Source of the DNA: Pseudomonadota bacterium
GTDB taxonomy: Bacteria; Myxococcota_A; UBA9042
Reading direction: 5' to 3'
DNA length: 36,708 bases
Assembly: GCA_005777155.1 (NCBI GenBank)
Contig: SXNM01000081.1
Coordinates: 1-36,708, forward strand
This document shows positions 3,109 through 30,312 of the stretch, in pieces. Numbering within the stretch: position 1 is the first letter of the stretch; every line of letters begins with the position of its first letter. Below the pieces are notes generated by a model, which was not told where the DNA came from, did no database searches, and was given only the letters and a program-made list of their open reading frames with translations. Both the position numbers and the translations under genes were made by a program.

Positions 3109-3912
3109 ATGGCGATCGAGAAGCAGGACGGCACCAGCGGCTTGGCTGTGTACCCCGACGGTGACGCCGCAGTGGGCCTGCTCGCCTTCGCCGGCGCCAA
3201 GGATCCGGAGGCTGTGCTCAAGCTCGGCAAGAAGGTCGTCTCGCTTTTGCTGCTCAAGGCGATCGAGGCCGAGGAGGCGCGCGCCAAGGCCGCAGACCCC
3301 AAGGCGCCCGTCGATCCCAAGCTCGGCATCGTCAAGAAGGCTGTCACCGACATGAAGGTCGACCCGCTGATCGAGGCGTTCGGCCCGGTGGCGAAGGAGG
3401 CGGGTGTCACTATCACCGCCAACACGACCAAGGCCGACGGCGCGGCCTGCGACGTCCTCGATTTCACTTTTGACTGGGCCAAGATCAAGGCCGCGGCCGG
3501 CGGCGAGGAGGTCGAGCAAGTCGAGCGCTTCACCGGCAAGAACATGGCCATGGCCCTGTGCACCGGCAGCGATCGGATCGTAGTCACCATCGGCCCGAGC
3601 GCGTTCGAGCAGGGGCGCCGCGCCGCGACCGGCAAGGTTGGCGGTCTCGACGCCGCGCCGGTCTGGAAGTCGACGGCCGAGAAGGCGGTCGCCTCCCCGG
3701 TGTGGCTCGGCTACCTGAACCTTGGCGCTGCTGTCGGCGCCATGAGCAAGGCGATTCCGGAGTTGGCAGGTATCGAATTGCCGGCCGACCGCGCCGTCGG
3801 CATCAGCTGCGGCTACCGCGCCCAGTCGTATGCTTGTGAGCTCGACGTGCCCGTATCCGTCGGCCAGGCGCTCGCCAAGATCGCCAAGCAGAAGGCTCGG
3901 CCGCAGCCATGA
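3109..3912 (+). CDS. C-terminal continuation of the preceding lipoprotein frame (separate ORF or pseudogene half)
   Basis: Same reading frame as 1969..3066, no signal peptide, similar composition; linker LDAAAVDGLEADLR is open between the TAG and ATG 3109. Confidence 0.6.
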   Translation: MAIEKQDGTSGLAVYPDGDAAVGLLAFAGAKDPEAVLKLGKKVVSLLLLKAIEAEEARAKAADPKAPVDPKLGIVKKAVTDMKVDPLIEAFGPVAKEAGVTITANTTKADGAACDVLDFTFDWAKIKAAAGGEEVEQVERFTGKNMAMALCTGSDRIVVTIGPSAFEQGRRAATGKVGGLDAAPVWKSTAEKAVASPVWLGYLNLGAAVGAMSKAIPELAGIELPADRAVGISCGYRAQSYACELDVPVSVGQALAKIAKQKARPQP

Positions 3913-3922
3913 AGGCGCGACG

Positions 3923-5521
3923 ATGCCCCTGCAGGTAGGCTCCAGGTACGCCCTGGCGCTGGCCTGCATGGTCTGGGCGCTGGCCTGCCGATCGCCGGCG
4001 CCAGATGGCTATGACGACGCCGAGCCCTACGCAAGCCTTGAGCGCAGTAGCGATGCCGACGCACCCGATATCACCACCGGGGGCGGCGACGCTGCGGCAG
4101 CTGCCGATGTGCAACCGCCGACGTTGCCGAGCCTTGAAGGGCCCTGCAGCGCCGGTGAGACACGCTGCGGCGGCGTTGAGCTCGACACTTGTGTCCCAGC
4201 TGGCGACGGCTGGGTTCGCCTAGCGTGCTTTCCTGGGACGGCCTGCGTCGACGGCAGCTGCCAACCGATCGGCAGCAATCTGGTCTTGATCTTCGATACA
4301 TCCGGCTCCATGAGCGCTACCGTCGGCGGCCGAGCCTGCGGCAAGACCAGCTTCCCAAACTGTGATCCAGCCAAAGGCTGCTCGCGGATGGACGTCAGCA
4401 AGGTGGTCTTCCGCGAGGCGCTGAAGAAGATCGACGGCGCGCGGGTGTCGATGGCGCTGTTTCGGTTTCCGTCCGGGCTGAACTCCCCGCCCTCGCCCGA
4501 CTGCGTCGAAGGGCACCAAGTGGGAAGTCATCACATGTCGGGCGATCCTGGGTCGCAGGCCGTGACCGCCGTGACCAAGTGGTATTGGTCAGCGCTGCAC
4601 GAGGTGATGGCGGTCCCGTTCCCGCGCACCCCTGCCGAGGCGACATCGCGCGGCAAGGAGCTGACGCGTTGGATGGACGGCGTCGAGAGCATCAAGAGCA
4701 CGGGCGCGTCCTGCGCAGGCGCCCAGTCCCACAAAGGCTGCGTGGCGGTCGCCGCCTGCGGCAAGGGCGCCTGCTGCGCCCAGGGCTGCATCGAGTCCGT
4801 GGAGCCCGAGCTGCGCGCGTCTGGCGGGACGCCGATCGGCAAGACGCTCTTCTACGTCGGCGAGTACCTTCGTCACCGCGTGGTCGTCGATGGCGCCGCC
4901 TGCACCGTCGACGGTGACTGCGGCACGCCTCACCACCGGTGTCTGCAGCAGCGGTGCGTCGATCCCGCCCGACATTGCCGCGATACGGTCGTGGTCTTGT
5001 TCACCGACGGTGGGCAAGACAGTGATCCCACGGATTTTTTCTCGCCACTCCCGATGGCCAAGCGGCTGGGCTATGGGCTTGCATGCAGCGGCGACGGCGA
5101 CTGCGTCGGGGGCGCCGTCTGCGACGCTGGGCGCTGCCTACCGAAGAGCGCGACAGGGCTGCGTTGCCTCGCGACCGGCGCGGCCTGCCAGCCAGGGGCT
5201 CCGGTCGGCGATCCGCTGCACTGCCCCACACTCCCCGGCGTCGGCAGCCACTGCCTACCGGAATCGACCGCCCAGCAGACCGCGAGCGCCGGCGTTGCAG
5301 CCCACAACGTGCTGCGGGCACCCGATGGAAAACCCTTCGGTGTGCGCTTGGTGGCGGTCGACGTCAGCGGTGAAGCGTCGCTCTTTCAGTCGTTTGACCT
5401 CGCGACGGCCGCGGGCGGCCGGGTCTTGACCGCCGACACCGCGGACCCAGCCGCGTTCCTGGCGACGCTGAACGCTGCACTCGACTTGAAAAACAGTAAG
5501 GCATGTGGGAACATTTTGTGA
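3923..5521 (+). CDS. von Willebrand factor A-domain lipoprotein with Cys-rich insertions
   Basis: Signal/lipobox-like VWALAC; MIDAS motif LVLIFDTSGSMS; later VVVLFTDGG; many Cys pairs; start moved from 3830 to 3923. Confidence 0.8.
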   Translation: MPLQVGSRYALALACMVWALACRSPAPDGYDDAEPYASLERSSDADAPDITTGGGDAAAAADVQPPTLPSLEGPCSAGETRCGGVELDTCVPAGDGWVRLACFPGTACVDGSCQPIGSNLVLIFDTSGSMSATVGGRACGKTSFPNCDPAKGCSRMDVSKVVFREALKKIDGARVSMALFRFPSGLNSPPSPDCVEGHQVGSHHMSGDPGSQAVTAVTKWYWSALHEVMAVPFPRTPAEATSRGKELTRWMDGVESIKSTGASCAGAQSHKGCVAVAACGKGACCAQGCIESVEPELRASGGTPIGKTLFYVGEYLRHRVVVDGAACTVDGDCGTPHHRCLQQRCVDPARHCRDTVVVLFTDGGQDSDPTDFFSPLPMAKRLGYGLACSGDGDCVGGAVCDAGRCLPKSATGLRCLATGAACQPGAPVGDPLHCPTLPGVGSHCLPESTAQQTASAGVAAHNVLRAPDGKPFGVRLVAVDVSGEASLFQSFDLATAAGGRVLTADTADPAAFLATLNAALDLKNSKACGNIL

Positions 5522-5597
5522 GAGGTCATGGAACTGGCAAGCTTAGATGGCGCGAGCTCTCTGGGCGCAGTGGGTTGAACGTCCGTCGAGGCTAGGC

Positions 5598-7364
5598 ATG
5601 AACCAGCGATCGGTCCGGGTGCTTGGATTCCTAGCGATCACTGGGCTGCTCGCATGCTCCAATCCAGCAGCGGGCGACGACGCGTCGGGCGCCGTTGAGA
5701 CCGCGACCGGCAACACTGCGAACAACGACACAGGCGGTCAAGGCGTGGACGGCGTTGACGCCGGCGCGCTCCCTGACGCCAAGCCGGACGCCGTGACCGG
5801 TGGCAGCGACGCGGCGACCGGTGAGGTGATCGCGGACAGCGGCGCAGACGTCTCTTCAGACGGCGTCGACGACCTCGGCGAGCAGAAGGACGGGTTGGAT
5901 ACCGACGACGGCGTGGCGGACGGATCCGGCTCCGACGCAGAGCCGCAGGATGGCGCTGGAGAAATCGACGAAGATGCCGAGCCGATCAAGGTCTGCAACG
6001 CCGGTGAGACCAAGTGCATTGGCGCCAAGATCGGCACCTGCGGTGCACTGGAAGACGGCTGGATTGAGAGCAACTGCTTCCCAGGCCAGACGTGCAGCAA
6101 CGGCGTCTGCGCCCCGGTGAGCAACAACTTGTTGATCGTCTTCGACACCTCCGGTTCGATGACGGGCAAGGTCAACAGCTGCAGCGTCAGTGGTCAAACC
6201 TGGCCAACCTGTGATCCCACCAAAGCCTGCACGCGCATGGACGTCAGCAAGGTCGTGTTCACCAAGGCCCTCGAGAAGATCGACGACGCCCTGACGCGGA
6301 TGGCGCTGTTTCGCTTTCCGCAGAAGCTCTACTACAAGACGGGGGCCAACAGTTGCATGTCCGGCTACTACCAGGGCCAGTCCAAGCTCTCGACCGACGT
6401 CGCGAACTTGCAGTCGGTCGAAGGCGACAGCGCCTCCTGGTTCTGGGATTCGCTCAACGAGACGGCATGTGTCGACTTCCCCAAGGACGACAAGACCGCG
6501 AATAAGGCGCAGATCCTCAAGTGGATGAATGGCAGCGAGTCGATGGCAGACAGCGGGAACTGTGGCGGAGGCTCGACGATGAGCTGTGCGCCGGTGAACG
6601 GCTGCGGCGGCACCTGCTGTTCTGGAACCTGCTGGATTCACGACGATCCGGAGCTGCGCCCGACGGGCGGTACCCCGATCGGCAAGACGCTCTTCTACGT
6701 CGGCGAGTACCTACGCAACCGCGTTGTAGTCGATGGACGCAAGTGCACAGCGGACGCCGACTGCGGCAACGTCAACTACCAGTGCAAGGACGGGATCTGC
6801 AAAGACCCGGCGCGATCCTGCCGCGAGATCATCTTGATCTTGTTCACCGATGGCGGCGAGAGCAACAGCGCGAGCAACTACTTCGCGCCGTGGGTGCAGG
6901 CCAAGCGAATGGCGTTCGGGCTCGGCTGCCAGAGCGACGCGGACTGCGTTGGGGGCACCTCAGACGAGCCGATCGTGTGCACCAGCGGCAAGTGCCTGCC
7001 AAAGTACTCGATCACCGGCTACTTCTGCTCGAAGTCTGGCGCCGCCTGTCTGCCAACGGCCCAGGTCGGTGAGGCCACTCATTGCGCCGGCACCTGCACG
7101 CCCGACCCGCGTGGGACCTTCACCGCGGCCGCCGGTGTCGCCAAGGACAACGTTCTGCGCTCGCCTGACGGCAAGCCTTTCGGCGTCCGAGTACACGTCG
7201 TCGACATCTCGGGATCGACCGACGCCAAGAACAGCATGAGCCTCGCCATCTCCGGCAACGGCAAGCTGCTCGGCGCCGACGCCGAGGACCCAGTCAAGTT
7301 CCTCGCCGCGCTCGAGAGCGCCTTCGACATCAAGAACGCAAAAATTTGCGGCGAGAGCTTCTAG
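5598..7364 (+). CDS. von Willebrand factor A-domain lipoprotein, tandem paralogue of the previous gene
   Basis: MNQRSVRVLGFLAITGLLAC lipobox; Asp-rich linker; LLIVFDTSGSMTG; ILILFTDGGES; shares GGTPIGKTLFYVGEYLR and NVLRxPDGKPFGVR with its neighbour. Confidence 0.83.
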   Translation: MNQRSVRVLGFLAITGLLACSNPAAGDDASGAVETATGNTANNDTGGQGVDGVDAGALPDAKPDAVTGGSDAATGEVIADSGADVSSDGVDDLGEQKDGLDTDDGVADGSGSDAEPQDGAGEIDEDAEPIKVCNAGETKCIGAKIGTCGALEDGWIESNCFPGQTCSNGVCAPVSNNLLIVFDTSGSMTGKVNSCSVSGQTWPTCDPTKACTRMDVSKVVFTKALEKIDDALTRMALFRFPQKLYYKTGANSCMSGYYQGQSKLSTDVANLQSVEGDSASWFWDSLNETACVDFPKDDKTANKAQILKWMNGSESMADSGNCGGGSTMSCAPVNGCGGTCCSGTCWIHDDPELRPTGGTPIGKTLFYVGEYLRNRVVVDGRKCTADADCGNVNYQCKDGICKDPARSCREIILILFTDGGESNSASNYFAPWVQAKRMAFGLGCQSDADCVGGTSDEPIVCTSGKCLPKYSITGYFCSKSGAACLPTAQVGEATHCAGTCTPDPRGTFTAAAGVAKDNVLRSPDGKPFGVRVHVVDISGSTDAKNSMSLAISGNGKLLGADAEDPVKFLAALESAFDIKNAKICGESF

Positions 7365-16264: not shown

Positions 16265-18382
16265 CTATTGCTGGCGCACCGCCCAGAACACCGCGTCCAG
16301 CCCGACGCTGTTGCCGCCGACCTTGAAGGTCATGTTCCACTTGCAGGGCAGGGCCTGCTTGCCGAGCGTGTCGATGATCATGTTCTGGTCATCGTCAAAG
16401 ATCGGGCAGTCGTCGGTCCAGATGGTCATCGCTTCGCCTTTGCTAGTGTCGACATCGAGGGTGGCGAGCTGGGCCTCGATGAACCCGGCGCCCAGCTTGA
16501 CCAGCGTCTCGCAGACGCCGGTCAGAAAGCTCTCGCCGACCAATGACTGTTGCTTTGCGAGGTCTTTGGCGAAATCGGCGCAGCAGGTGTCTTTGGCGAC
16601 GCACTGCTGACCCGCCAACAGCGACTTGATCATCATCTCGAAGGAGTCGACCTTTGGGTTGCCGGTCAGCAGCGGCAAGAGCTGCTTCTGCACCAGAAAG
16701 CTCACCAAAGCGCCCCACTTCACCAAGAGCCCGTGCTTAGCGATGTCGATGGTCGAGAGGATTCCGTCGCGCGTCATGTCGAAGTGGCCGACGATCGCCT
16801 CGTTCTGAAACTGCGCGAAGCTGATGGTCTTCTTGCCGCAGGCCGGGTCCTTTGGGCTGCACGGTTGGCCGAGCGACCACTTGTAGGTCACGCTCATCCA
16901 CTCGTCGCGGGTGTAGGCCTTGCTGAGCTTGCCGTCGGCGCCCGGCTCCTTCTGGATCTCGATGACGCCGCCGACCTCTAGGTTGGTCAGGATCTTGCCG
17001 AGATCGGCGCCCGCCGTCAGGCCCTGTTGGACGTCCTTGGGCAGGTAGAGGAACAGGATGGAGTCCAGCAACTTGACGATGAGCGCCCCGAACGGCTGCT
17101 TCAGGTCGTCAATCGCCGGCGACTTGGGATTCTCAAAAATCAACCCGCAGAACGAGTCGAGCGAGCTGCCGCCGAGCTTGCACGCCAGCGACAAAATGCC
17201 AGCGATCGGGTCCGACAAGATGTCGAAGATCGCCTTGAAAGCGAACTCAACCGAGTCCGGCAACACGCTCAGCAGGTCGAGCACCGTCGTCATCTCGTAG
17301 GTGCCGACGATGCGCGGCGGCAAGTCCTTGACGATGACCGTGACCGAGTCGCCCTCAAGCGCCATCGTCTGCGGGTTCCAGGCCACCTGCACGCCGGTGT
17401 CGAGGCAGCCGCCTGCCCGCACCTGATCAGCCGACGTCTTGCGGGCGATGCCGAGGACCGTAAAGGTGATGGGCTGCCCCGTCTTGCTCTGCTCCTTCTG
17501 CACCCAGGTCAAGAAGGGCGGATAGGTTACCGCCCACGGCTTGTCCCAGCCGATGGGCGGGCTCTCCCACTGCGCGGTGGGCAAGACGTCGCCGAGGTCG
17601 AGGTCCTGGCACGCCGGCTGTCCTGGCGCCGCCTGCTGCACCAGTCGAATGCGGATGTCGCTGTAATCCATCGGGTTGTTGCTCCCGAGGTAGTGCGGAG
17701 TAATCGTCAGCGGCCCCTTGGCCTTGCTCAAGACATGAAACTCAAAGAATTTTGGCACAATTACAGTCGGATCGGCCTCAGCGACCGACGCCACCACGTC
17801 GAAGACGCCCGTTTGGCTGCCCGCCTTCACCTCCGTCGTAGCGACGCCGTTTTCGTCGGTCAGCGCCACCTCCAGCAGCACCTCGCCGAGGCCGCTGGCT
17901 GCCACCGGGTCTTTCAGCAGGAAGCGGATCGGGGCGTTCGCCGTCGGCTCGCCGTCGACCACCAGCCTCACCGCGACCTTGCGCACGCTGTTCTGGTTGA
18001 GCTGCAGCTTACAAAGCGCCTTGCAGAGCCCGCCAAAGTCGTCCTTGTTGCCGTTGGCTAGGGCGTACTGCAGCTCAATGGCAGGCCCCTGAACGTCGCC
18101 CGGTTCGCCATCCGCCGGGGCGATGCCGTCCTGCGCGTCCTGGGGCGCCTGAGCGTCGAACTGCCCGACACCAAAACCATCGCCACCGAACACGGATCCA
18201 TCGCCAGCGCCGGCTCGCCCGTCGGCGAAGGGCAGCAAAATGCCCGCTGTCGGCTCTGCGCTGCACCCCATCTGCATGAGCAGCGCTGCGAGTACGATCC
18301 AGTGCCCGCCATGAGGCCCCTTGGCAAGCGCCACCGCCGGAACGGAGGCCGAGCGGGGTATCACTTCGCTGCGCACGCTCAT
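16265..18382 (-). CDS. Exported protein, 705 aa, possible lipoprotein; Ig-like (Big_1-type) region plus novel C-terminus
   Basis: AGGAGG SD; signal-like segment ending MQMGCSAEP (weak lipobox); KVAVRLVVDGEPTANAPIRFLL...TDENGVATTEVKAGSQTGVFDVVASV. Confidence 0.75.
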   Translation of the reverse strand: MSVRSEVIPRSASVPAVALAKGPHGGHWIVLAALLMQMGCSAEPTAGILLPFADGRAGAGDGSVFGGDGFGVGQFDAQAPQDAQDGIAPADGEPGDVQGPAIELQYALANGNKDDFGGLCKALCKLQLNQNSVRKVAVRLVVDGEPTANAPIRFLLKDPVAASGLGEVLLEVALTDENGVATTEVKAGSQTGVFDVVASVAEADPTVIVPKFFEFHVLSKAKGPLTITPHYLGSNNPMDYSDIRIRLVQQAAPGQPACQDLDLGDVLPTAQWESPPIGWDKPWAVTYPPFLTWVQKEQSKTGQPITFTVLGIARKTSADQVRAGGCLDTGVQVAWNPQTMALEGDSVTVIVKDLPPRIVGTYEMTTVLDLLSVLPDSVEFAFKAIFDILSDPIAGILSLACKLGGSSLDSFCGLIFENPKSPAIDDLKQPFGALIVKLLDSILFLYLPKDVQQGLTAGADLGKILTNLEVGGVIEIQKEPGADGKLSKAYTRDEWMSVTYKWSLGQPCSPKDPACGKKTISFAQFQNEAIVGHFDMTRDGILSTIDIAKHGLLVKWGALVSFLVQKQLLPLLTGNPKVDSFEMMIKSLLAGQQCVAKDTCCADFAKDLAKQQSLVGESFLTGVCETLVKLGAGFIEAQLATLDVDTSKGEAMTIWTDDCPIFDDDQNMIIDTLGKQALPCKWNMTFKVGGNSVGLDAVFWAVRQQ

Positions 18383-18399
18383 CGATGGCCTCCTGCGTG

Positions 18400-21180
18400 C
18401 TAGGGCGTCGCGTCGGCGCCGGCGTCTGCCTCGGCGGTGGCCGCAGGCAACGGCGGCAGGTAACGCAGCACCGTGCCGATGCCGCCGACGAGCAGCGCGT
18501 CCTTGCCCCAGCCGCAGATGTCATGAAACGCCGTAATGCTCCCGCTCTCCAGCGCCGTGAATGTCTTGCCATCGAATGCCAAGACCATGCCCTGCGTGCC
18601 GGCGAAGAGCATTCGGTCGGCCGCCCAGCCCCAGATCGCGCGCACCGTGCGCACCTCGTCTTTGAACGCCGGCACGTAGCGCCAAGCCTTGCCGTCGTAG
18701 TGCACCAGGACGCCCTCGCCCTGGCTGTCGGGCGCGCCAGCGGCCCAGATGTCGTTGGGCCCAGCACCCCAGATGGCGTACAGGTCGCTCGTCACCTTGT
18801 ACTCCGGCTGATCAGCGACCTGGTAAGGCTCGATCGGCACCTGCGTCCAAGAACCGTTGACCATGTGGAACACGCCGCCCTTGGTGCCCACCGCCCAGAC
18901 GTCCTCGGCGGAGAAGCCGTGGACATCGCGGAGTGTGCCAAATACCGGAGCCTCTAGGACTTGAAAGGAGACGCCGTTCCAGCGCAGCAGCAAGCCGCCC
19001 TTGGCCGCTAGGTAGACGTCGTTCGGGTCGGAGCCCCAGACCGCGAGGTAGTCGGCCTGCGGATAGGGCGTCGCCACGACCTCGAAGTTCGTGCCGTTCC
19101 AGCGCAGCACTGTGCCGCCGAGGCCGACGACCCACGCCAGCTCTGCGCTGTGCGCCCAGACCGCGTTCAGGTGCTTGCCCGTCCCCGACTTCAGCTGGGT
19201 CCAGGCGCCGCCTTGCAGGCGCGCGACGAGGCCATTCTCGCCCGCCGCGAATGCGACACCGCCGTCGGCGCTCGCGACCGCCCTGGCGTGGCTCAGGCCC
19301 AGCGCGCCGTTGGCCTCCACCCACTGGCCGCCCGTGCGCGTCACGACCGTGCCGCCGGTGCCGACGGCCACGGCTCCGCCGCCGCCGAGCCCGGTGACGC
19401 CGTTGAGCGCCGCGATCGTGCCCGCCTTCATGCCCCAAATGCCGGTGGCGCTGCGCTCCATGACCATGCCGCCGGCCACCACCGCCCAGACGCCGTTGCC
19501 CAGCGCGGCGACGCCCTTGATGCCAAACGCCGGCACCGACACCGGCTTCCAGGTCGTGCCGTCATACTCGTAGACGAGGCTGCTGCTGCTGACCGCGATC
19601 GCCAGAGGCGACCCGGCCGGCGGCGTCGGATCGACGTCGACGTCGACGAGATCGAGCGCGGTCGCCACCGTCAGCGGACCCAAGCCTTGAGGCGCCACGG
19701 TGAAGGCCTTGCCTTTCTGCCCGACGCCGAGCGCTAGGCCGCCAGCGACGCCACCGAGCGCCAGCGAGTCGCGTGGCGGCGCGGCGCCGGTCTGCATCGC
19801 CCACACCTTGCCGTCCCAGCGAGCGATAGAGGCGTCGGTGCCGACGGCCCAGGCGTGCTCATCGTCGGCCGCCCAGACGTCGAAAAACGTCGCCTGGCTC
19901 ACGCCGCTCAGGGCGATGTCCCCCGACTTGCAGGTCGTCGACACCACCAGGTCGTCGATGAACACGCCCTCGCCGTCGTTGAGCGACGCGTCCTTCGAGT
20001 CGAACGCGATCTCGAGCTGAAAGGCCTTGCCGGCAAAGGCCGCGAGGTCCACCTGCTGCAGCACGAACGCCCCCTCGGTGTCTCCGGAGCCCCCGATCTT
20101 GTCCTTGTTCCAGATCTCCGTCTTCTTGTTGCCTTCGATGACCTTGACCGTCAGGGCGTCAAAGCCGGTGCCGTTCTCGGCCTGCATCCGAAGCTGAAAG
20201 CTGAGGCTGACCTGCTCGGTCTTGCTCGCCGCCGGCAGCGTGATGGGCGCCGACAATGCGCTGCCGCCGACGACCTTGCCGTTGCCGAACGTCGGGCACA
20301 TCTTGGCAGGGTCGCTGGCGCACGGGACATCAATGCGTCCGAAATACAATGCCTTCGGCGGGCTCGTCGCGATGAGCTCGCCCTTCGCGCCAGTCATGCC
20401 TGCCGCCGACCAGAGCACACCGCCCTTGTCAGCGCTGCCCTCGTAGAGGTCCTTGACCAACCACCCGGCGAGGCTGACGAACGTCTCCTGCAGCGGCTTG
20501 CTGCCGCAACAGCCCGGCGCGCCCGAGGGCGTGTGGCGGCAGGTGCCGGCGTCACAATAGTCCGACGTGCACTTGTCGCCGTCGTTGCAGTCGGCCATCG
20601 CCTTGCAGCCGCCGGGTGCGCCCCACTGGCCGGCGAGGCCCTTGGGAGGCTGCTTGCCCTGGGCCAACGTGCCGGCGATGCCGACCGCGTGTGCGTAGAG
20701 TCCAGTCGGCGTCGCAGCGAGGCCGTGCAGGGTCTGGAACGCCCCCTGCGACAAGATCGACCAAGCCTTGCCGTTCCAGCCTGCGATGTGGCCACCCGTC
20801 CCGGCGAGGTAGGCGCGCGTGCTGCCCTCCGTCCAACAGGCGTGCCACGCCGTGTTGACGTCGCCAGGCACCTTGAGCTGCTCGAACAAGCCCGTGGTGT
20901 TTGGATTGCGCGCGCTGTCAGGCAGTTGAACGTCGAGCGCCGCCGGTACGTCCGCCACCGCGTCGGCGTCGGCGGCCGGACTACCGGAGTCCTTGGCGCC
21001 GCTGGCGTCTAGGGGCGAGACGCCCCCGCTATCAGCCAACCCGCTGTCTGCAGCCGTAGCCGCGCTGTCCTTGTCGGTGCCTGCCCCGTCCTCTTCGCCG
21101 CAGGCGCCGAGCGCAGCGACCGCAGCCGCCATCACCCAAAGATGCGCCGCGCTCCGCGACCCTGGCCCTCGTCGCGCCAT
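18400..21180 (-). CDS. Propeller-like lipoprotein with Cys-rich motif and jelly-roll-like region, 926 aa
   Basis: Lipobox VAALGAC; repeated units such as DVWAVGTKGGVFHMVNGSW, VWGSDPNDVYLAAKGGLLLRWNG, IWGAGPNDIWAAG; CNDGDKCTSDYCDAGTC. Confidence 0.82.
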   Translation of the reverse strand: MARRGPGSRSAAHLWVMAAAVAALGACGEEDGAGTDKDSAATAADSGLADSGGVSPLDASGAKDSGSPAADADAVADVPAALDVQLPDSARNPNTTGLFEQLKVPGDVNTAWHACWTEGSTRAYLAGTGGHIAGWNGKAWSILSQGAFQTLHGLAATPTGLYAHAVGIAGTLAQGKQPPKGLAGQWGAPGGCKAMADCNDGDKCTSDYCDAGTCRHTPSGAPGCCGSKPLQETFVSLAGWLVKDLYEGSADKGGVLWSAAGMTGAKGELIATSPPKALYFGRIDVPCASDPAKMCPTFGNGKVVGGSALSAPITLPAASKTEQVSLSFQLRMQAENGTGFDALTVKVIEGNKKTEIWNKDKIGGSGDTEGAFVLQQVDLAAFAGKAFQLEIAFDSKDASLNDGEGVFIDDLVVSTTCKSGDIALSGVSQATFFDVWAADDEHAWAVGTDASIARWDGKVWAMQTGAAPPRDSLALGGVAGGLALGVGQKGKAFTVAPQGLGPLTVATALDLVDVDVDPTPPAGSPLAIAVSSSSLVYEYDGTTWKPVSVPAFGIKGVAALGNGVWAVVAGGMVMERSATGIWGMKAGTIAALNGVTGLGGGGAVAVGTGGTVVTRTGGQWVEANGALGLSHARAVASADGGVAFAAGENGLVARLQGGAWTQLKSGTGKHLNAVWAHSAELAWVVGLGGTVLRWNGTNFEVVATPYPQADYLAVWGSDPNDVYLAAKGGLLLRWNGVSFQVLEAPVFGTLRDVHGFSAEDVWAVGTKGGVFHMVNGSWTQVPIEPYQVADQPEYKVTSDLYAIWGAGPNDIWAAGAPDSQGEGVLVHYDGKAWRYVPAFKDEVRTVRAIWGWAADRMLFAGTQGMVLAFDGKTFTALESGSITAFHDICGWGKDALLVGGIGTVLRYLPPLPAATAEADAGADATP

Positions 21181-23156
21181 TACAGCCCCTCGGCGACGTC
21201 ATAGACGCCGCCCTTATGGCCCACCGCCACCGCCAACTTGCCGCTGACAGCGACACCACGCAGCACGTTGTTCACGCCCGAGGTACGCACCTGAAAGGCG
21301 CCCGCCTTGCCGACAACCAGGCTCCCTTGCCAGCCGACAGCGACCACTCGGCCATCGGCCAAGCGCTCGACGCCGAATAGAAAGAGGCCGGGCTGCTCGA
21401 ACCCCACAGACCAGGTGCCTTCCGGCTTGCGTAGCAAGATCACGCCGTTGTCGCCAACGGCGGCTGCCTCGCCGCTGGCTGCGCCGACCACGCGGTGTAG
21501 CGGTGTGCTGGTCCCAGACGACTCCTTGCTCCAGACGCCGTCCTTGCCGCGGCGAAGCACTGTGCCAAAGGCCCCGACCGCCAAGGCGACGTCCCCTGCG
21601 GCCGTCACCGACTCAAGATCCATCTGGGTGCCCGTGTTCTCGGCCTTCCAGCTGCCGCCGACAAAGGCCATGGCGACGCCGCCGACGCCCACCGCTACGA
21701 CCGCGCCTCCGACCTTGGCGACGCCCCGCAGCTGCAGTCCGCTCGACGCTGCCGGGGTCGAGACCTGGGCCGGACCCGTCTTGCCGAGGTGGACGACGAC
21801 CCCGGCGTCGCCGACGGCCACGAGGCCACCGTCGCCATCGTCGCAGACGTCGTATAGGTCGGTGCCGGTGACGTCGACGTGCAGATCGACCAGCGGCGAC
21901 CTCGCGTCGGCTGCCTGCAGCAGCACGCCGCCGCCACCCACCGCGATGACACGGCCGTCGGCCAAGGCGCGCACCGAGAGCAGGTTGGCCGAGGTCTCGG
22001 CGCGCTTGTCGAGCCACTTGTCGGTGGCGCCATCGTAGCGCAGGCCGGCGCCCTTGTCGCCGACGGCGAATCCCTGCAAAGTTCCGTCTTTGCTAGAGAA
22101 GCCAAACACGGCGCGGAAGGTGGCGGTCTTCATATAGGTCGCGTCGTCCAGGTCGCGCAGGCCCCACTTGGCGCCGGTCAGCTCGACCAGGGCACCGTCC
22201 TTGCCGATCGCGAAGGCGGTCACATCGTCGATGGCCCACATGCCATAGAGATCGCGATTCTTCGGGTCGTTTGAGAGCGTCGCCGTCCAGGCTTTGTCCT
22301 CGGTCGCGGCGAGGAAGCCGTCGAGGCCGCAGGCCATCAGCTTGCCGCCCTTGGTGACGTCGAGGCCGGTCAGCGCCTCCGCCGCGCTCGGCATCGAGAA
22401 GCTTGTCCAGCTGCCGCCGTTGAGGCGCAGGCCCTGCCCCTTGGCCCCGACCGCCCAGACGTTGCCGGCGTTGATGGCGCGCAACGCGCGGATCTGCAGC
22501 GCTGAATTCGTCGTCTCCTGTACAAAATCGCCATCGACGAGCCGCAGGACCACGCCGTCGTCGCCCGCCACAAGCAGCGTCGAGCCATCCGCCGGGCTGT
22601 GAATGGTCCGCAGCACGACGTTCTCGAGGCCCTTGGGAAGCTTGTTGAACAACTTCTTGCCGTTCCAATGCAGCAGCGTGCCCTCACCGGCGATGACGAC
22701 GTCATTGGGGCCGCGGCCCCAGACCGCATAGAGGTCCTTCTTGGTCCCAGAGTCCCGGGGTACCAAGGTCTTGCCGTTGTCATGCAACAGCCGACCGCCG
22801 CTGCCCACCCACCAAACGTCCTGCGCGCTGCTGCCCCATACCCCGTGAAAGTTCTCGGAGAATTGCAGCGAGCGGGCGCTCAGCAGCGCGCTGCCTCCGC
22901 CACCGGTCTCAGTCTCGAACGTGTCGCCGTCGCTGGCGGTCCCGGTGTCACCGGCGTCAAGGCCACCGTCAAGGCCGGCGTCGACCGCGTCGGCGACGGA
23001 GTCCTCCGACCCGATGTCGGCGCTGACGTCGGCGCCGCCGTCAGGCTTGGTCTCGCCGTCGTCGCCGGTGCAACTAGCGGTGAGCGCGAGGCACAGACCC
23101 ATCACCAGCCGCGAGGCTGCGCAGGCTCGCTTGAACTTGCCTTCAATTTTCCACAC
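21180..23156 (-). CDS. Propeller-like exported lipoprotein, 658 aa
   Basis: GTG start; signal ending LALTASC; repeats such as VWGSSAQDVWWVGSGGRLLHDNG, VWGRGPNDVVIAGEGTLLHWNGK, VVAVGVGGVAMAFVGGSW; stop/start TAATG overlap with the next gene. Confidence 0.8.
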   Translation of the reverse strand: MWKIEGKFKRACAASRLVMGLCLALTASCTGDDGETKPDGGADVSADIGSEDSVADAVDAGLDGGLDAGDTGTASDGDTFETETGGGGSALLSARSLQFSENFHGVWGSSAQDVWWVGSGGRLLHDNGKTLVPRDSGTKKDLYAVWGRGPNDVVIAGEGTLLHWNGKKLFNKLPKGLENVVLRTIHSPADGSTLLVAGDDGVVLRLVDGDFVQETTNSALQIRALRAINAGNVWAVGAKGQGLRLNGGSWTSFSMPSAAEALTGLDVTKGGKLMACGLDGFLAATEDKAWTATLSNDPKNRDLYGMWAIDDVTAFAIGKDGALVELTGAKWGLRDLDDATYMKTATFRAVFGFSSKDGTLQGFAVGDKGAGLRYDGATDKWLDKRAETSANLLSVRALADGRVIAVGGGGVLLQAADARSPLVDLHVDVTGTDLYDVCDDGDGGLVAVGDAGVVVHLGKTGPAQVSTPAASSGLQLRGVAKVGGAVVAVGVGGVAMAFVGGSWKAENTGTQMDLESVTAAGDVALAVGAFGTVLRRGKDGVWSKESSGTSTPLHRVVGAASGEAAAVGDNGVILLRKPEGTWSVGFEQPGLFLFGVERLADGRVVAVGWQGSLVVGKAGAFQVRTSGVNNVLRGVAVSGKLAVAVGHKGGVYDVAEGL

Positions 23157-23207
23157 GTGACTTCCCCTCTGCTGCCTCGCCGCCCAGTCGAGTCCCGCCG
23201 GCGCGGG

Positions 23208-26200
23208 CTACTGGCGTGTGAACAGGAACATATTGAACGCCCACGAGCGCCACGTGAGCTGGTTCAGGTCGGTGAGGTCGTAGGCGTCGATGTCAAAGCC
23301 TTCCTTGTAACCGCGGATCATCGTCAGCCGCAGCGGGGTGCCCTTGGGGATGCCGGGGGTGCCCTGGATGTTCGGGAAGTCGGGCAGTGTGGCCGCGGTC
23401 AGGTCGCCAGCCGACATGATGTTCCACACCGGCGTGTCGCCACCCATGCCCGGAATGCCGACGGTGACGTAGTTGAAGTGCGGTTCAGGTGTGTCCGGCC
23501 CCACCTCCCAGTCGAGGGTGGTCCCGGTCAACACCCCGTTCTTCTTCGGCATAACGGCGTGCGGCGCGTCGAGCAGCGGGCCGATCAGCAGCTCCTGCTC
23601 ACCCATCGACAGCAGGTTGCCCTTGCTGTCTGCCCACACCGCGTACAGCGCTTTGGTGACGTCGCCGAGGTCATGTTTGATCCACGCCTTGCCGTCGAAA
23701 CGCAGCACCACGCCGCGGGCGCCGGCGGCCCAGATTTCGTCCTTGCCGACCGCCCATAGCGAGTGCAGCGTGGTCTTCACCGGCGACTTGAAGGAGGTCC
23801 ACTTCACGCCGTTCCAGCGCAAAATCTGGCCAGCCTCGCCGACCGCCCAGGCGTCGTCCTTGTGCACGGCCCAGACGCTGTTGAGCGCGATCGCCGTCCC
23901 TGAGGTGTGCGCCTTCCAGACCTTGCCGTCCCAGTGGTTGATCTTGCCCTGCATGCCGACGGTCCAGACGTCGTCTACGCCGGTGCCATGCATGGCCAGG
24001 ACGTTGAAATAGGGCGCCTGTGGGTACTGCTTCCACGACTCAACGCCGTTCACCGCCTCCAAACGCCAAGTACCCGACTGGCCGGCGGCCCACACCTCGG
24101 GCTTCTTGGTGGTTGGGTTGTTGGCGGCGAACACCGCATTCAGGTTGGGCTTTGTCGTCGGCGGCCACATCGGCACCGGCGACCAGCTCTGGCCGTTGAA
24201 GTGCGCCGCGGTGCCCTGCTCGCCGACGACCCAGATCGCGTCCGGGCCGGTGCCATGGATGTCGAGCAGGTTGAGGTCGGTGAACGCGGCCTGCTGAGTC
24301 CAGCCGTTGCCGCCAAAGAGGTAGAGCGCGCCGCCGTCGCCGATCGCATAGGTATTGGTCAGCTCGCTGCCCCACATGCCGCGCACGGTCTTGGCGACGC
24401 CGGTCTCTACCAGCTCGAGGTCGCCGCCGTCGAGTCGCCGCACCATGTCGTCGTTGTTCAGCCTCTTGACGTCCTTGAGCACAGAGACCGACACCGGCAT
24501 CTGCTCATTTCCGGCGATCTGCACGACGAAGGCGAGGAAGGTCAGGCTGGCGTCAAAGAGCTCATTGGCGAACGCCGCCGGCAGCTTGTCGATCTCCAGC
24601 TTGTCCGGTTGGCTCGACTGGAAGGGAGCGAGGAACTTCTGATCCTGCGTCGGCATCTTGACGACGCCGTCGCTGCCGAGCGTCAGGTAGGAGATCGCCG
24701 CGTCGACGATGTAGGCGCCATTCGGGATCGTCCACGTCGGCGGCCGATCCAGACGCAGGCTCGCCTTTCGGCTTAGGGGCATGTTGAGGACGATGTTGAC
24801 GTCCTTTGGGTTCTCGCCTGGGCCGACGAAGAGGTGGCGCTTGACGCCCATGACCGTGGCGGTGAAGGCCATCATCGACTGCGCGTCGTCGGCGTCGAGT
24901 ACGGCGCCGCTCTGCTTGTAGCCGCCGAAGCAGACGATCGCCATCTCGCCGAACGCCGTGTTGATGTTGTAGGCGAAGCTGTTCTGTGGCGACGCCTCGA
25001 AGCCCGGTCCGACCGGCGGCCAGTTCTCGCGCGACAGAAAGTTGGGCTTGCTGTGGTAGCAGACCGCTGCGAGATCGCCGGCCTTGGGCAGGCAACGCGC
25101 CGGTCCACCGGCCTGCGGCACGCACGAGAAGCCCGTGGCGCAGTTGACCCCCTGGGTGCAGTCCTGCACGCAGCGCTTGCCGTTGCTGGCGCCGATGTCG
25201 ATGCAGGCGAAGTCCGGCCCGCCGCTCGCGCACTGCGAGTCGACGCTGCACGGCGAGCATGTCGGCTTGGGGACGTTCGGGTTGTTCAGGAACTCATTGC
25301 AGTTGCCGGTCGGCACCTGCACGTACTTGTCGAGGTTGATGACCTTGCCGCTGACCTTGGGCGGCGGCTGACCTGGCGGCGGGGAGCCAGGCGACGGCGG
25401 CGGGATCGGCTGCAGGTAGATGGTGACGTTGGTGGCGTCAAACTTGATGACCGAGGCCGACTCGTAGCCCGCCTTGCTGGCCGAGATCATCTGCACGCCG
25501 AGCAGGTCGTCGCCGCTGAAGGTGATCTGGCCCGCGGCGTCGGTGAAGCCCTGGTGCGGCGTCGTCGGATCGGTCCACAGCATCGTGAAGGCGTCTGGAA
25601 TCGGCGCGCCGTCGCCGCCGTCGAGGACCGTAACGTTGACCGCGCCGTCGATGGTGGCGCCCCAGGTGCCGCCGTATTTGCTCATCGGGTTGAAGTAGGT
25701 GAAGCCCTGCTTGAGCTCCGAAGCCAACGCACCGGTCGCCGCCTTGACCGCGACGGTGCCAACCTTGCCGGGCGGCGTCTTGCAGACGATGTGCGTCGGG
25801 TCGACGAAGGTCAGGTGCGTCGCTGGCTTGTCGTCGAACCAGATCGCGGTCTTGGGAGCAAATCCGTTGCCGTAGACGTGGACCTGCGTGCCGCCGGCCT
25901 GCGCTCCGTAGTCCGGGAAGACGACGTACAGCGACATGCCGTCGCCGGTGTACGAGTACGCCTTGTGGGCCACTGCGACGTCGCCTCCCAGCTCGACGCT
26001 GACGTCGACATAGCCCGCGGCGCCGGGCGGCGTCACCGCCTGCAGCGTGGAGTCGTCGATCACCACCGCGGTGGTCGCCGGCAGGGCGCCAATGCGGACC
26101 ACCGGTTGGCCAGGCTTTGTGAAGCCGGAGCCCTTGATGGTGATTTTGGTGTTGCCGGTCGGCGGGCCGAACGCCGGCGCGACCGACGCGATCGACAGCA

Positions 26201-27557
26201 GGTCGAGGTACTCGTAGCCGCCAACCTTGGTATCCGTGCCCTTGCTGGTCAGCAGCACGACGTCGACCTTGGCCGCCTTCAGGCCCTTGGGCGTCTTGAT
26301 GACGACGGTGTGGTGGATGGCGTCGAACGCCGTGATGGTCGCCAACTGGCCGCCGAACAGGACCGTCGTGTCCTCTTTGGTGAGCAGACCCGTCGCTGCG
26401 ATCGACACCGACTGGCCGCCGGCGAGCGGACCGACCGCAGGCGCGATCGAGAGCAGCGCCGTCGCGCCCTGGCCTTGGTCGTCGGTGTAGGCGTAGCCGC
26501 CGGCGAGCGTCGCCTTGCCGAACTTGGTGGTGACGTGCAGGTCAACTGGCCCCTGCTTGCCCGCCGGCACCATGACGCGCGCCCGCCGATGGTCCTTCGA
26601 GACCCAGAGGATCGCCGCCACCGAGGCGCCGAACCGGATCTCGCCTGTCGACAGCAGTCCCTTCCCTTCGATCTCGATCTCGTTGCCGCCCGCGGTCGGC
26701 CCGGCAGCTGGCGCCGCCCGCTCCAAAGTTGGGGCCGCGCTATAGAAAAAGCCGTCCTTGAGCAGCGCGGTGCCACGCTCATTGACGACGTGGACTGGCG
26801 CAGCGCCAAAGACGCCGGGCGGGGTGACCGCCAAGATCTCATCGTCGCCGACGACCGTCACGCCGAGCGCCGGTTTGCCGCCGATGAGCACCTTGGTCTG
26901 GCCCGCGAAGCCCGTCCCCGTGATCGTGATCGGCGTGCCACCAAAAGCCGGGCCGGCGGCCGGATCGATCTTGGTGATGACGACATCGTTGTAGAACAGA
27001 TAGGCGTCGGGCAGGGCCGATGTCGGCGCGTCTTCGCCCGGCGCCGGCGGCGGGTTGATGACCGTCACGCTCGCCAACCCCGGCGCATGCGGCGGCGTCT
27101 GGACCTGCAGCTCAGTGTCGTCGACGAAGAAGACCTGCTCCGCGTCCACTGGCGTGCCGTCGAAGAGGACCTGACAGCCGTTCTGGAAACCCTTGCCGTA
27201 CAAGATCGCAGGCTGATTGCCGCTGGCTTTGCCGCTGGCGGGGTCTATGCTCTCTAGCAGCAGGGGCTCAGGTGCCGCGTCCTCGTCGTTGGCGTCGGCC
27301 TCGGTCTCGCCGCCGCCGCCGCTGTCTGGCGCCGCGATCTCCTCGACCGTCGCCGCGTCGGTACCGCCTGACGTGTCAGCGGCGACCGCGGTGTCACCTG
27401 CAGAGGGCTTGTCGTCATCGACCTCTGGGTCCGAGCAGGCGCCCGCAGTCAACGCGAGTGCCGCCAACCAAAGGGGCAGCCCGAGCGTGGGTCGCTGGCT
27501 CCATCCGCTGGAAATCATCGGCGATCCGAAGCGGGCATCGACACGGGCGGCGTCCAT
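23208..27557 (-). CDS. Large exported multidomain protein: six IPT/TIG-like repeats, CarboxypepD_reg-like domain, Pro-rich linker, Cys-rich segment, propeller-like C-terminal region
   Basis: Repeats of (I/V)xPxxGPxxGGTxIxIxGxGF...VxTPPGxxGxxxVxV; DGAPIPDAFTMLWTDPTTPHQGFTDAAGQITF; PIPPPSPGSPPPGQPPPK; DDVWTVGMQGKINHWDGKVWKAH; start set to ATG 27557 with GGAGG upstream rather than the TTG at 27569. Confidence 0.85.
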   Translation of the reverse strand: MDAARVDARFGSPMISSGWSQRPTLGLPLWLAALALTAGACSDPEVDDDKPSAGDTAVAADTSGGTDAATVEEIAAPDSGGGGETEADANDEDAAPEPLLLESIDPASGKASGNQPAILYGKGFQNGCQVLFDGTPVDAEQVFFVDDTELQVQTPPHAPGLASVTVINPPPAPGEDAPTSALPDAYLFYNDVVITKIDPAAGPAFGGTPITITGTGFAGQTKVLIGGKPALGVTVVGDDEILAVTPPGVFGAAPVHVVNERGTALLKDGFFYSAAPTLERAAPAAGPTAGGNEIEIEGKGLLSTGEIRFGASVAAILWVSKDHRRARVMVPAGKQGPVDLHVTTKFGKATLAGGYAYTDDQGQGATALLSIAPAVGPLAGGQSVSIAATGLLTKEDTTVLFGGQLATITAFDAIHHTVVIKTPKGLKAAKVDVVLLTSKGTDTKVGGYEYLDLLSIASVAPAFGPPTGNTKITIKGSGFTKPGQPVVRIGALPATTAVVIDDSTLQAVTPPGAAGYVDVSVELGGDVAVAHKAYSYTGDGMSLYVVFPDYGAQAGGTQVHVYGNGFAPKTAIWFDDKPATHLTFVDPTHIVCKTPPGKVGTVAVKAATGALASELKQGFTYFNPMSKYGGTWGATIDGAVNVTVLDGGDGAPIPDAFTMLWTDPTTPHQGFTDAAGQITFSGDDLLGVQMISASKAGYESASVIKFDATNVTIYLQPIPPPSPGSPPPGQPPPKVSGKVINLDKYVQVPTGNCNEFLNNPNVPKPTCSPCSVDSQCASGGPDFACIDIGASNGKRCVQDCTQGVNCATGFSCVPQAGGPARCLPKAGDLAAVCYHSKPNFLSRENWPPVGPGFEASPQNSFAYNINTAFGEMAIVCFGGYKQSGAVLDADDAQSMMAFTATVMGVKRHLFVGPGENPKDVNIVLNMPLSRKASLRLDRPPTWTIPNGAYIVDAAISYLTLGSDGVVKMPTQDQKFLAPFQSSQPDKLEIDKLPAAFANELFDASLTFLAFVVQIAGNEQMPVSVSVLKDVKRLNNDDMVRRLDGGDLELVETGVAKTVRGMWGSELTNTYAIGDGGALYLFGGNGWTQQAAFTDLNLLDIHGTGPDAIWVVGEQGTAAHFNGQSWSPVPMWPPTTKPNLNAVFAANNPTTKKPEVWAAGQSGTWRLEAVNGVESWKQYPQAPYFNVLAMHGTGVDDVWTVGMQGKINHWDGKVWKAHTSGTAIALNSVWAVHKDDAWAVGEAGQILRWNGVKWTSFKSPVKTTLHSLWAVGKDEIWAAGARGVVLRFDGKAWIKHDLGDVTKALYAVWADSKGNLLSMGEQELLIGPLLDAPHAVMPKKNGVLTGTTLDWEVGPDTPEPHFNYVTVGIPGMGGDTPVWNIMSAGDLTAATLPDFPNIQGTPGIPKGTPLRLTMIRGYKEGFDIDAYDLTDLNQLTWRSWAFNMFLFTRQ

Positions 27558-27641
27558 CGCGTCCTCCAAACTGACCGCCAGCGGGCTGACGGTGGCTGTT
27601 GCGCAAGCGGCCCGGCAGCACCGAGCCGCTCGCCCCTGGAG

Positions 27642-29720
27642 CTATTCGCCAGGCTCCTTGACCAACCCGAGGTCGGTCAGATCGAGCCCGGCGGCGTATC
27701 CGTACGACACATACTGATCGAAGCCGTAGGCCTCGACCGCGACCTTCTGATCGGCGGTCACCCGGTGCGTGCCTTCGGTGACAAATAGCGAACTGAACTT
27801 ATAGTCTTTGCTGATTTTCTGCCAGAAGTCGGGCGGCAGCGGCTGGCCGTCGAGCGAGACCGTCGAGGCGATCGGGGCCGCGATCGTGATGTAGTTAAAG
27901 GCATATTTGTTCGGCGTCAGGAAGACGAAGCTCTTGCGCCACTGCTCGACCGGGATCGCGAGCATCATCGCTGGGTCGCCGGTGCCGGCGTCGCCAGGCT
28001 GCGGACCCACCGTGTTTGGATCCGGCGCGTCTTGGCTGGCCATGAAGTGACCCACCATGATCGGCGCCGGCTTGCCGTCGGCGTGCTTGGCGATGATCTC
28101 GAAGCTCTGACGCGTCTCGATCTCGAACCACTCACCCTTGTTCAGCACTGGAACGTAAACCGCCTTGCCCTTGAGGTTCTTCACCGTCGGGATGGTCGTG
28201 ACCTTGGTTCCGTCCTCCGCCGCGACGATCCGCCAGTAGTCGGCCTCCTGGTTGCGGGGATAGAGCTTGGCGCAGACGTAGCGGCTGCCCCACGTCTTGA
28301 CCGGAAACAGTTGATGCTCAAGGTGATCGGCGCAGCAGGTGATGAACTCACTGCAGTGTTCGTTGCTAAAACACGGGGTCTTGCCGTCGAATTCGCAGGT
28401 GCCGCACTTGGTCCCGGAGTCCAACTGCTTGGTCGTGCACTTGTCGATCGTGCAGTGGTTGGTGTTCGGCGCGTTGCCCGCTTCCGAGCCGCCGAACATC
28501 GCCACCCGCTTGTTGGCGACCACGATTGTGCCGGTCAGATCGGCGCCGACCTGGTCGGTCTCGATGTTCAGCGTGTCCCACTGCTCGAGCTCAAACGTCG
28601 CAGACTCGCCGGCCTTCAGCACTTTGATGGTGCCGTCCGAGCTGGCGAGCGTCTTGGCGACCGTCTTGGGCAGGGTGAACGTCACCGAGGTCACGCCGTC
28701 CATCGTCGCGATGACGGTGAAGAAGCCGCGCAGGACGCCGAACGACTGCTCGCGGCTCATCACCATGTAGTACTTGCCCAGCAGCTCCTCGGGCAGCAGC
28801 AAGCTGGCGTCATTGCTGAAGACGTTGACGTTCTCGAGCGGGTTGAACTGGTAGGCGGTGATCGGCACCGATGACTTGACCCGGTAGGCGAGCTTGGCCT
28901 TCACCGTGCCGTTGACGTTGCGCGCCGGCAGATTGAAAATCCGCAGCTCGCCTGGCGCCAGCGGGCTCAGGTCCAGCTCGTCGTCCTGCGAGTCGTAGGT
29001 GACCGGGCCCTCGTTGTTCGAGATCTGGATGTTGGCCGCCAGGGACTCGCTGGCGTTGCTGACGACGATCGCATACTGGGCGCCAGCGGCGTCGTAGTAG
29101 CCCGCCCGGCCGCCCGGGACAAAGGCGTTGTCGAGGTCCGCTGCCCAGAATGAGCAGCCGATGTAGCTGTTGGCCTTGACGTTGTTGGTACAGGCCTCAC
29201 CGCAGATGCCGTTGAAGCACTCATGGCCCTTGGCGCCATCGCAGACCTGCTCCTGCTGCCACTTGCCCTCTCCGTCGCACTTCTGCGCCACGCCCGAGTT
29301 CTTTGGGTCGCAGCGCTGCTGACCTGGGCTGCACTCCGAGCAGACTCCGGGCAGTTGGCACTTGGTGGGCGTGCCGTCGGAGGCGTAGCAGACCGTGGCG
29401 ACAAAGCCCGAGCCATCGGCAGCGCAGACCAGAAGCTCGGCGTCGCTGGCGCAGCCCTTCACGCTGCCGGGTGCGCATACGGCGCCCTCAGGCACCTCGA
29501 CGGCGTCGGCGTCGCCGGAGGCAGTGTCACCACCGCCGATCGCGTCGTCGCCGCCCGTGTCGCCCACGTCCGCAGTCGCCGCGTCTGGCTTGGTACCCGC
29601 CGGCTCGTCGCCGCCGCAGCCGGCCACGACGCCCAGCGTCGCCACCGCCAGGGAGAGCCCGAGCACCGCAGCGCGCGCACCCGCACGCCGCCAGCTCTCC
29701 ATCGCCGCTCGCAAGGGCAT
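27642..29720 (-). CDS. IgGFc-binding-like lipoprotein, 692 aa
   Basis: Lipobox GVVAGC; Cys-rich stalk; body resembling the IgGFc-binding N-terminal family (ESLAANIQISN, VAMFGGSEAGNAPNTNHC, CCADHLEHQLFPVKTWGSRYVCAKLYPRNQEADYWRIVAAEDGTKVT). Confidence 0.75.
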   Translation of the reverse strand: MPLRAAMESWRRAGARAAVLGLSLAVATLGVVAGCGGDEPAGTKPDAATADVGDTGGDDAIGGGDTASGDADAVEVPEGAVCAPGSVKGCASDAELLVCAADGSGFVATVCYASDGTPTKCQLPGVCSECSPGQQRCDPKNSGVAQKCDGEGKWQQEQVCDGAKGHECFNGICGEACTNNVKANSYIGCSFWAADLDNAFVPGGRAGYYDAAGAQYAIVVSNASESLAANIQISNNEGPVTYDSQDDELDLSPLAPGELRIFNLPARNVNGTVKAKLAYRVKSSVPITAYQFNPLENVNVFSNDASLLLPEELLGKYYMVMSREQSFGVLRGFFTVIATMDGVTSVTFTLPKTVAKTLASSDGTIKVLKAGESATFELEQWDTLNIETDQVGADLTGTIVVANKRVAMFGGSEAGNAPNTNHCTIDKCTTKQLDSGTKCGTCEFDGKTPCFSNEHCSEFITCCADHLEHQLFPVKTWGSRYVCAKLYPRNQEADYWRIVAAEDGTKVTTIPTVKNLKGKAVYVPVLNKGEWFEIETRQSFEIIAKHADGKPAPIMVGHFMASQDAPDPNTVGPQPGDAGTGDPAMMLAIPVEQWRKSFVFLTPNKYAFNYITIAAPIASTVSLDGQPLPPDFWQKISKDYKFSSLFVTEGTHRVTADQKVAVEAYGFDQYVSYGYAAGLDLTDLGLVKEPGE

Positions 29721-29994
29721 CGCATCCTCCGCCGCTGCCCAACCGAGGGCCGGTCGACCCCCGACAAACGGGCAGGCGACCGCAAACCAACGATGCTACC
29801 GAATTCCCAGCGCCACGGTCAATCAACCAAGGGCGCCCTCGGAGGCGAGCGGGGCGCCCAGGATCGATGGCGGCGGGGGTTCACTCCGCGCCGGTGTCGA
29901 GCAGCAGCCCTGCGGAACGACGAGAAGTCTGGCGATGGGGCGTCTGGGGCTCTTCGCGCGCCAGGCCGTGGGCGGCGCGTTCGGCCGGTTTCGC

Positions 29995-30078: not shown

Positions 30079-30312
30079 ATGGCCGTCCGCATCCGCCTCG
30101 CCCGCTATGGCGCAAAAAAGCACCCCGTATACCGCATCGTCGCCGCTGACGCCCAGTCGCGCCGCGACGGTCGCTTCATCGAGCAGCTCGGCGCCTACGA
30201 TCCCAACGTCAACCCGCCGAAGGTCTCGCTCGAGCGCGACCGCTATGACTACTGGTTGGCGAACGGCGCGCTGCCGTCCGAGACCGTAGCGCGCTTGACC
30301 AAGGGCGCCTAA
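30079..30312 (+). CDS. rpsP: 30S ribosomal protein S16
   Basis: MAVRIRLARYGAKKHPVYRIVAADAQSRRDGRFIEQLGAYDP; AGGAG upstream; ORF-track start at 29395 is too far upstream. Confidence 0.96.
   Translation: MAVRIRLARYGAKKHPVYRIVAADAQSRRDGRFIEQLGAYDPNVNPPKVSLERDRYDYWLANGALPSETVARLTKGA

Follow-up and report, generated by a model that had tools for sequence, protein, structure and literature searches.

Four neighbouring genes, p1 to p4, form the conserved unit of the window's class, their order p1-p2-p3-p4 being intact in 30 of 52 class genomes from seven families and cut by contig ends in three more. The gene order, the promoter motif, the lipoprotein signals, the predicted folds of p3 and of part of p5 and, in outline, the growth of the set come from computation. 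We infer surface exposure, a physical complex and adhesive function for p1-p4 and for a fifth protein encoded next to them, p5. An outer-membrane, surface-exposed assembly for binding or contact, possibly adhesive, is the favoured reading of p1-p5, to which we give about an even chance, because the proteins have anchors, tethers and binding modules, with no recognised catalyst and no transporter.

Locus, promoter motif and lipoprotein anchors

The window, that is the whole stretch of 36,708 nucleotides analysed here, comes from a MAG that is 59% complete, in a class represented by 52 genomes. Five large genes, p1 to p5, lie head to tail on its minus strand, flanked by priA, which is on the plus strand, ends at 16227 and is convergent to the block, and by rpsP (30079-30312, plus strand), which is divergent from it:

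29793..29822, minus strand: promoter-like site TTGACC-N18-TAGCAT upstream of p1; the motif recurs in orthologous loci
27642..29720, minus strand: p1, predicted 692-aa lipoprotein, IgGFc_binding (ORF, Pfam, lipobox VVAGC, orthologues)
27723..28811, minus strand: IgGFc_binding domain of p1, residues 304-666 (Pfam PF17517, E 2.5e-59, 201 bits against a cut-off of 25.6)
23208..27557, minus strand: p2, predicted 1449-aa lipoprotein, TIG repeats, middle region, propeller and C-terminal domain (ORF, Pfam, segment profiles)
25623..27245, minus strand: six IPT/TIG repeats of p2, about residues 105-645 (Pfam PF01833, E 4.1e-68)
23553..24392, minus strand: propeller-like segment of p2, about residues 1056-1335 (segment profiles; not in p2 homologues outside the class)
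21180..23156, minus strand: p3, predicted 658-aa lipoprotein, putative double seven-bladed Ycf48-like propeller (AF2 model, PDB profile, Foldseek)
18400..21180, minus strand: p4, predicted 926-aa lipoprotein, Cys-rich knot, MAM-like domain and propeller (ORF, domain search, p3 profile)
16265..18382, minus strand: p5, predicted 705-aa lipoprotein, Ig-like domains and a conserved Cys-containing C-terminal domain (ORF, model, homologue profiles)

The intergenic gaps are 72 nt for p1-p2, 51 for p2-p3, -1 for p3-p4 and 17 for p4-p5; the first becomes 84 nt with the preferred p2 start, an ATG at 27557 after GGAGG that gives 1449 aa, where a TTG at 27569 would give 1453 aa. These ORF coordinates agree with a first-pass annotation made from the sequence alone, which had placed five minus-strand genes of such sizes and gaps between priA and rpsP, though without giving rpsP as divergent. 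At the p3-p4 junction, a 4-nt overlap is seen in 15 loci.

Upstream of p1, the motif TTGACN-N17/18-TAnnnT is found within 350 bp in 17 of 31 loci, whereas first-order Markov resampling of these sequences gives an expectation of 0.16, which serves as a guide and not as a p-value because the pattern was picked after the window site and a first count. The window copy (TTGACC-N18-TAGCAT, 29822-29793) is sigma-70-like. Spacers vary between genera, arguing that the motif is not mere identity by descent. Since it stands before p1 and was found neither in the 98 regions upstream of p2-p5 nor inside genes (0 in 413 kb), p1-p5 likely form one transcription unit, read from the promoter-like site before p1. 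Scanning the window against Rfam and for tRNAs gave no match, and terminator-like sites are no commoner in it than in shuffled sequence. Elsewhere in the window, two tandem paralogous lipoproteins (3830-5521 and 5547-7364, plus strand) have a von-Willebrand-A-like motif, FDTSGSM, and Cys-rich parts; neither has a Pfam match at 1e-3.

Lipoprotein signals are predicted in all five window proteins, with the lipoboxes, from p1 to p5, VVAGC-G, LTAGAC-S, LTASC-T, ALGAC-G and MQMGC-S. The signal-like N-termini described at first pass are better named lipoprotein signals. Among homologues, a strict automatic lipobox search was positive in 127 of 154, and most of the others have a lipobox by eye. The residues at +2 are G, S, T, G and S in the window, and Asp occupies this position in 4 of the 127 homologues. 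Lacking Asp at +2, p1-p5 are predicted to be sorted to the outer membrane, under a rule established for E. coli and assumed to be valid in the host phylum. In the models, disordered tethers cover residues 27-87 of p3 and 1-98 of p5.

Protein modules and the face of the membrane

In p1, the IgGFc_binding domain (PF17517) is full-length and above the curated cut-off, and the six TIG/IPT stretches of p2 (PF01833) are above theirs, and both modules had been recognised at first pass. A sequence search with p1 for relatives of known structure found none. IgG binding by p1 was considered and set aside, the family name being a naming relic and nothing here pointing to IgG.

The AlphaFold2 model of p3 (pLDDT 88.6, pTM 0.83) has 14 repeats of about 40 residues and is read as two seven-bladed propellers behind a 60-residue disordered tether. 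Its best PDB profile match is Ycf48 (8.6e-12), and its nearest folds by Foldseek are tandem propellers, the BT4663 glycan-sensor propeller also being listed. PSII_BNR is found in 9 of 32 p3 members; the window protein, which taken alone has no Pfam PSII_BNR match, counts as a Ycf48-like propeller by fold and profile. In p4, a Cys-rich knot and a MAM-like domain (13 of 21 members) accompany a propeller, and complete p4 homologues score 179-347 bits against the p3 profile. Propeller-like repeats are thus present in p2, p3 and p4, where the first-pass annotation had placed them. Kinship with the pilus-tip adhesin PilY1 was dropped, as p2-p4 have no PilC/PilY1 Pfam match. In two genomes (G031 and G040; L042 11234-13153, L043 4786-6801), p4 lacks part of its propeller and is only about 640-670 aa long, beside apparently intact p2, p3 and p5.

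The p5 model (pLDDT 80.2, pTM 0.65) runs from a disordered stretch (1-98) through Ig-like strands, which match the intimin D00-D0 Ig domain over 104 columns (TM 0.37 by target), to a helix-rich C-terminal region with no match of its own among the structure matches listed. A Big_1-like Ig domain had been proposed here: the Big_1 match reaches 5.5e-8 in p5 homologues but falls far below the cut-off in the window protein itself (E 0.064). Pfam and NCBIfam over p1-p5 found no enzyme domain, in line with the first-pass annotation, which recognised no enzyme motif.

Propeller and Ig domains serve envelope assembly factors too, which counts against the favoured surface reading; BamB is a propeller lipoprotein and Ycf48 a propeller assembly factor. 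A serious rival, although unlikely in our judgement, is that p1-p5 face the periplasm and, in the manner of these two, scaffold an envelope machine or help to assemble it: the p3 sequence is closest to Ycf48-like propellers, the lipid anchor and the +2 rule fit either face of the outer membrane, surface or periplasmic, and class-wide conservation fits a housekeeping role. However, the Ycf48 matches reflect the propeller repeat and not the assembly function, no envelope-machine gene lies within the p1-p5 block, and modules such as the TIG repeats of p2, the Ig-like domains and the Cys-rich knots are typically extracellular. A Sus-like system for glycan capture, with surface lipoproteins that deliver to a transporter, would also account for a run of consecutive large surface lipoproteins and for BT4663 among the Foldseek matches of p3, but we consider it very improbable: neither the block nor the scanned flanking genes contain a TonB-dependent transporter, a SusD family member or a glycoside hydrolase, and a Sus-like uptake locus was rejected because no SusC-type transporter beside SusD was found there.

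Gene order and growth of the set

Relatives of p1-p4 are found in all 52 class genomes, and of p5 in 50. Presence alone is little informative because propellers and p1/p2 paralogues are numerous, many lying elsewhere in class genomes, so the test rests on gene position. Within f1, the family of the window, where identity of p1-p5 is about 40-70%, 21 of 22 genomes keep the p1-p4 order, the contig of the other (G044) having only p1 and part of p2; p5 comes next after p4 in 20 of them, and in G043 the contig ends there and p5 opens another one. Outside f1, p1-p4 are intact in G001 and G004 (f2), G021 (f5), G022 (f6), G026-G028 (f10), G029 (f11) and G030 (f12), and cut by contig ends in G019 (f5) and G024 (f8). 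Other arrangements occur: the order is p3-p4-p1-p2 in G017 (f3), p1-p2 and p3-p4 are on two contigs in G018 (f4), p3 directly follows p1 with no p2 in the cluster in G003 (f2), and the cluster is mostly missing from the small genomes of f3. That five proteins keep the same order in related genomes argues that the block is more than chance. The synteny test proposed at first pass, co-occurrence in relatives, thus leaves the block standing with changed borders: p1-p4 hold class-wide, p5 is linked to them only in f1, and p1-p2 occur outside the class as well.

We found p5 beside none of the p1-p4 clusters outside f1 and rejected it as a core member. Where f1 is left behind, a DAGK_cat gene directly follows p5 in nine genomes of families f3, f5 and f6 (L028/L096, L030, L031, L032, L033/L092, L035, L089, L094, L095); with this diacylglycerol-kinase-like neighbour, p5 outside the p1-p4 operon therefore has a different partner.

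Such separations bear on whether the proteins work together. The other serious rival, which we think rather unlikely, is that five surface lipoproteins are co-transcribed for a shared condition and each acts alone, without a complex. It gains from the families in which p1-p2, p3-p4 and p5 are apart (G018, G010-G012, f3, p5 outside f1) and from the many paralogues of p1, p2 and the propellers in these genomes; it is opposed by the best-scoring p1 and p2 matches, which are adjacent in 33 of 52 class genomes, by the p1-p2 neighbours in three outside families, and by the overlapping p3-p4 junction, held across large divergence. The favoured surface reading, for its part, is weakened by genes that can live apart (f3 mostly without the cluster, G003 without p2 there) and by p5 as an optional, late partner.

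Outside the class, in other families of its phylum, p1 and p2 stand head to tail in f28 (L084, L097-L100), f30 (L105-L108, L110, L114, L115, L117, L118) and f43 (L111-L113), with neither p3 nor p4 beside these pairs. Searched with segment profiles of p2, all 19 homologues outside the class show the TIG region and the middle region and 18 match the C-terminal segment weakly, but none shows the propeller; within the class, 33 of 34 members carry the p2 propeller, the exception being G029 (f11), which has p3 and p4. The p3-p4 genes and the p2 propeller insertion were found only in the window's class. These distributions suggest stepwise growth of the set, from a p1-p2 pair, through the gain of propellers (p3, p4 and the p2 insertion), to that of p5 in f1. 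The members of each family group together on the p1+p2 tree, which makes inheritance look mainly vertical. In the first such tree, f11, with p3 and p4 and no p2 propeller, was deepest, and the fork was unresolved with the propeller columns removed; possibly p3-p4 were gained before the p2 propeller was inserted, the alternative being loss of the propeller in f11.

In six f30 loci (L105, L107, L108, L110, L114, L117), p1-p2 and a Ser/Thr protein kinase gene are transcribed away from each other, and in most loci a conserved series of genes for small exported proteins comes after the kinase. Family f19 was considered as a full-set carrier and rejected, because it has only p2-like genes in tandem and a p1 that is not linked to them; such tandem pairs of p2-like TIG lipoproteins are seen both in f19 and in f48 (L078, L079, L080, L082, L083).

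Under the favoured surface reading, one promoter upstream of p1 would drive an operon for five large lipoproteins, each lipidated at the cysteine following its signal peptide and, without Asp at +2, sorted to the outer membrane, from which a flexible Asp/Gly-rich tether would extend it outward. What is displayed would be binding-type modules only: the IgGFc-binding fold of p1, the TIG rod and propeller of p2, the propellers of p3 and p4 and the Ig-like domains and unassigned C-terminal domain of p5. The resulting cell-surface assembly would have the old p1-p2 pair as its foundation, with propellers as the first additions and p5 as a later one. That such a multi-lipoprotein surface machine, p1-p2 founded and enlarged by propellers and then p5, works as one physical assembly is a tentative proposal, possible rather than probable. 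The description of an undescribed block of exported proteins with interaction modules is itself borne out by the conserved synteny, the promoter motif, the lipoprotein signals, the propeller and Ig folds, the lack of an enzyme domain in the searches and the lack of a paper on it in the literature searched; the adhesion, predation or matrix complex put forward at first pass stays a hypothesis.

Comparison with known systems

The modules of p1-p5 are known; their combination, class-wide conservation and stepwise enlargement seem undescribed in the open-licence literature searched, where queries for IgGFc-binding/PF17517 in Myxococcota, Deltaproteobacteria and Bdellovibrio, and for choice-of-anchor, returned nothing relevant. 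The IgGFc-binding name derives from an animal mucus protein, and for bacterial members of the family (PF17517), to which p1 belongs by a full-length domain far above the cut-off, we know of no function. Ycf48/HCF136 and YCF48-like (PSII_BNR) proteins share fold and repeat type with p3, as the profile match indicates, but p3 differs from Ycf48/HCF136 in being a putative double propeller on a lipoprotein, beside surface-type lipoproteins and with no photosystem link. The phylum of the nearest named relatives has TraA and the other MYXO-CTERM surface proteins of Myxococcota, anchored C-terminally through myxosortase (PMC11980579); like p1-p5 they are lipid-anchored and bear binding modules, whereas p1-p5 have N-terminal lipoboxes and gave no MYXO-CTERM match in NCBIfam.

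These bacteria commonly have large sets of lipoproteins, most of them unread. With a defined core, an outline of assembly history and a promoter motif, p1-p5 become testable as a unit, and the p1-p2 pair, carried by at least three outside families, offers a route to possibly cultured organisms. Should p1-p5 prove to be an apparatus for contact or adhesion, they would be a new kind of surface structure in a group noted for predation and social contact.

A likeness of design is seen in TasL of Vibrio fischeri, a large lipoprotein that bears Fn3 repeats, mediates contact between cells and is encoded in a T6SS island (PMC9040878). Both TasL and p2 are large predicted outer-membrane lipoproteins without a Lol avoidance signal, and both have repeated domains of Ig-like fold, Fn3 in TasL and TIG in p2, that could reach outward. 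However, TasL comes from one gene of that island, whereas the likely operon here encodes four lipoproteins, or five with p5, includes propellers and has no secretion genes, no T6SS gene being detected among p1-p5 or the scanned flanking genes. TasL may thus serve as a working analogue, by likeness of design and not by membership.
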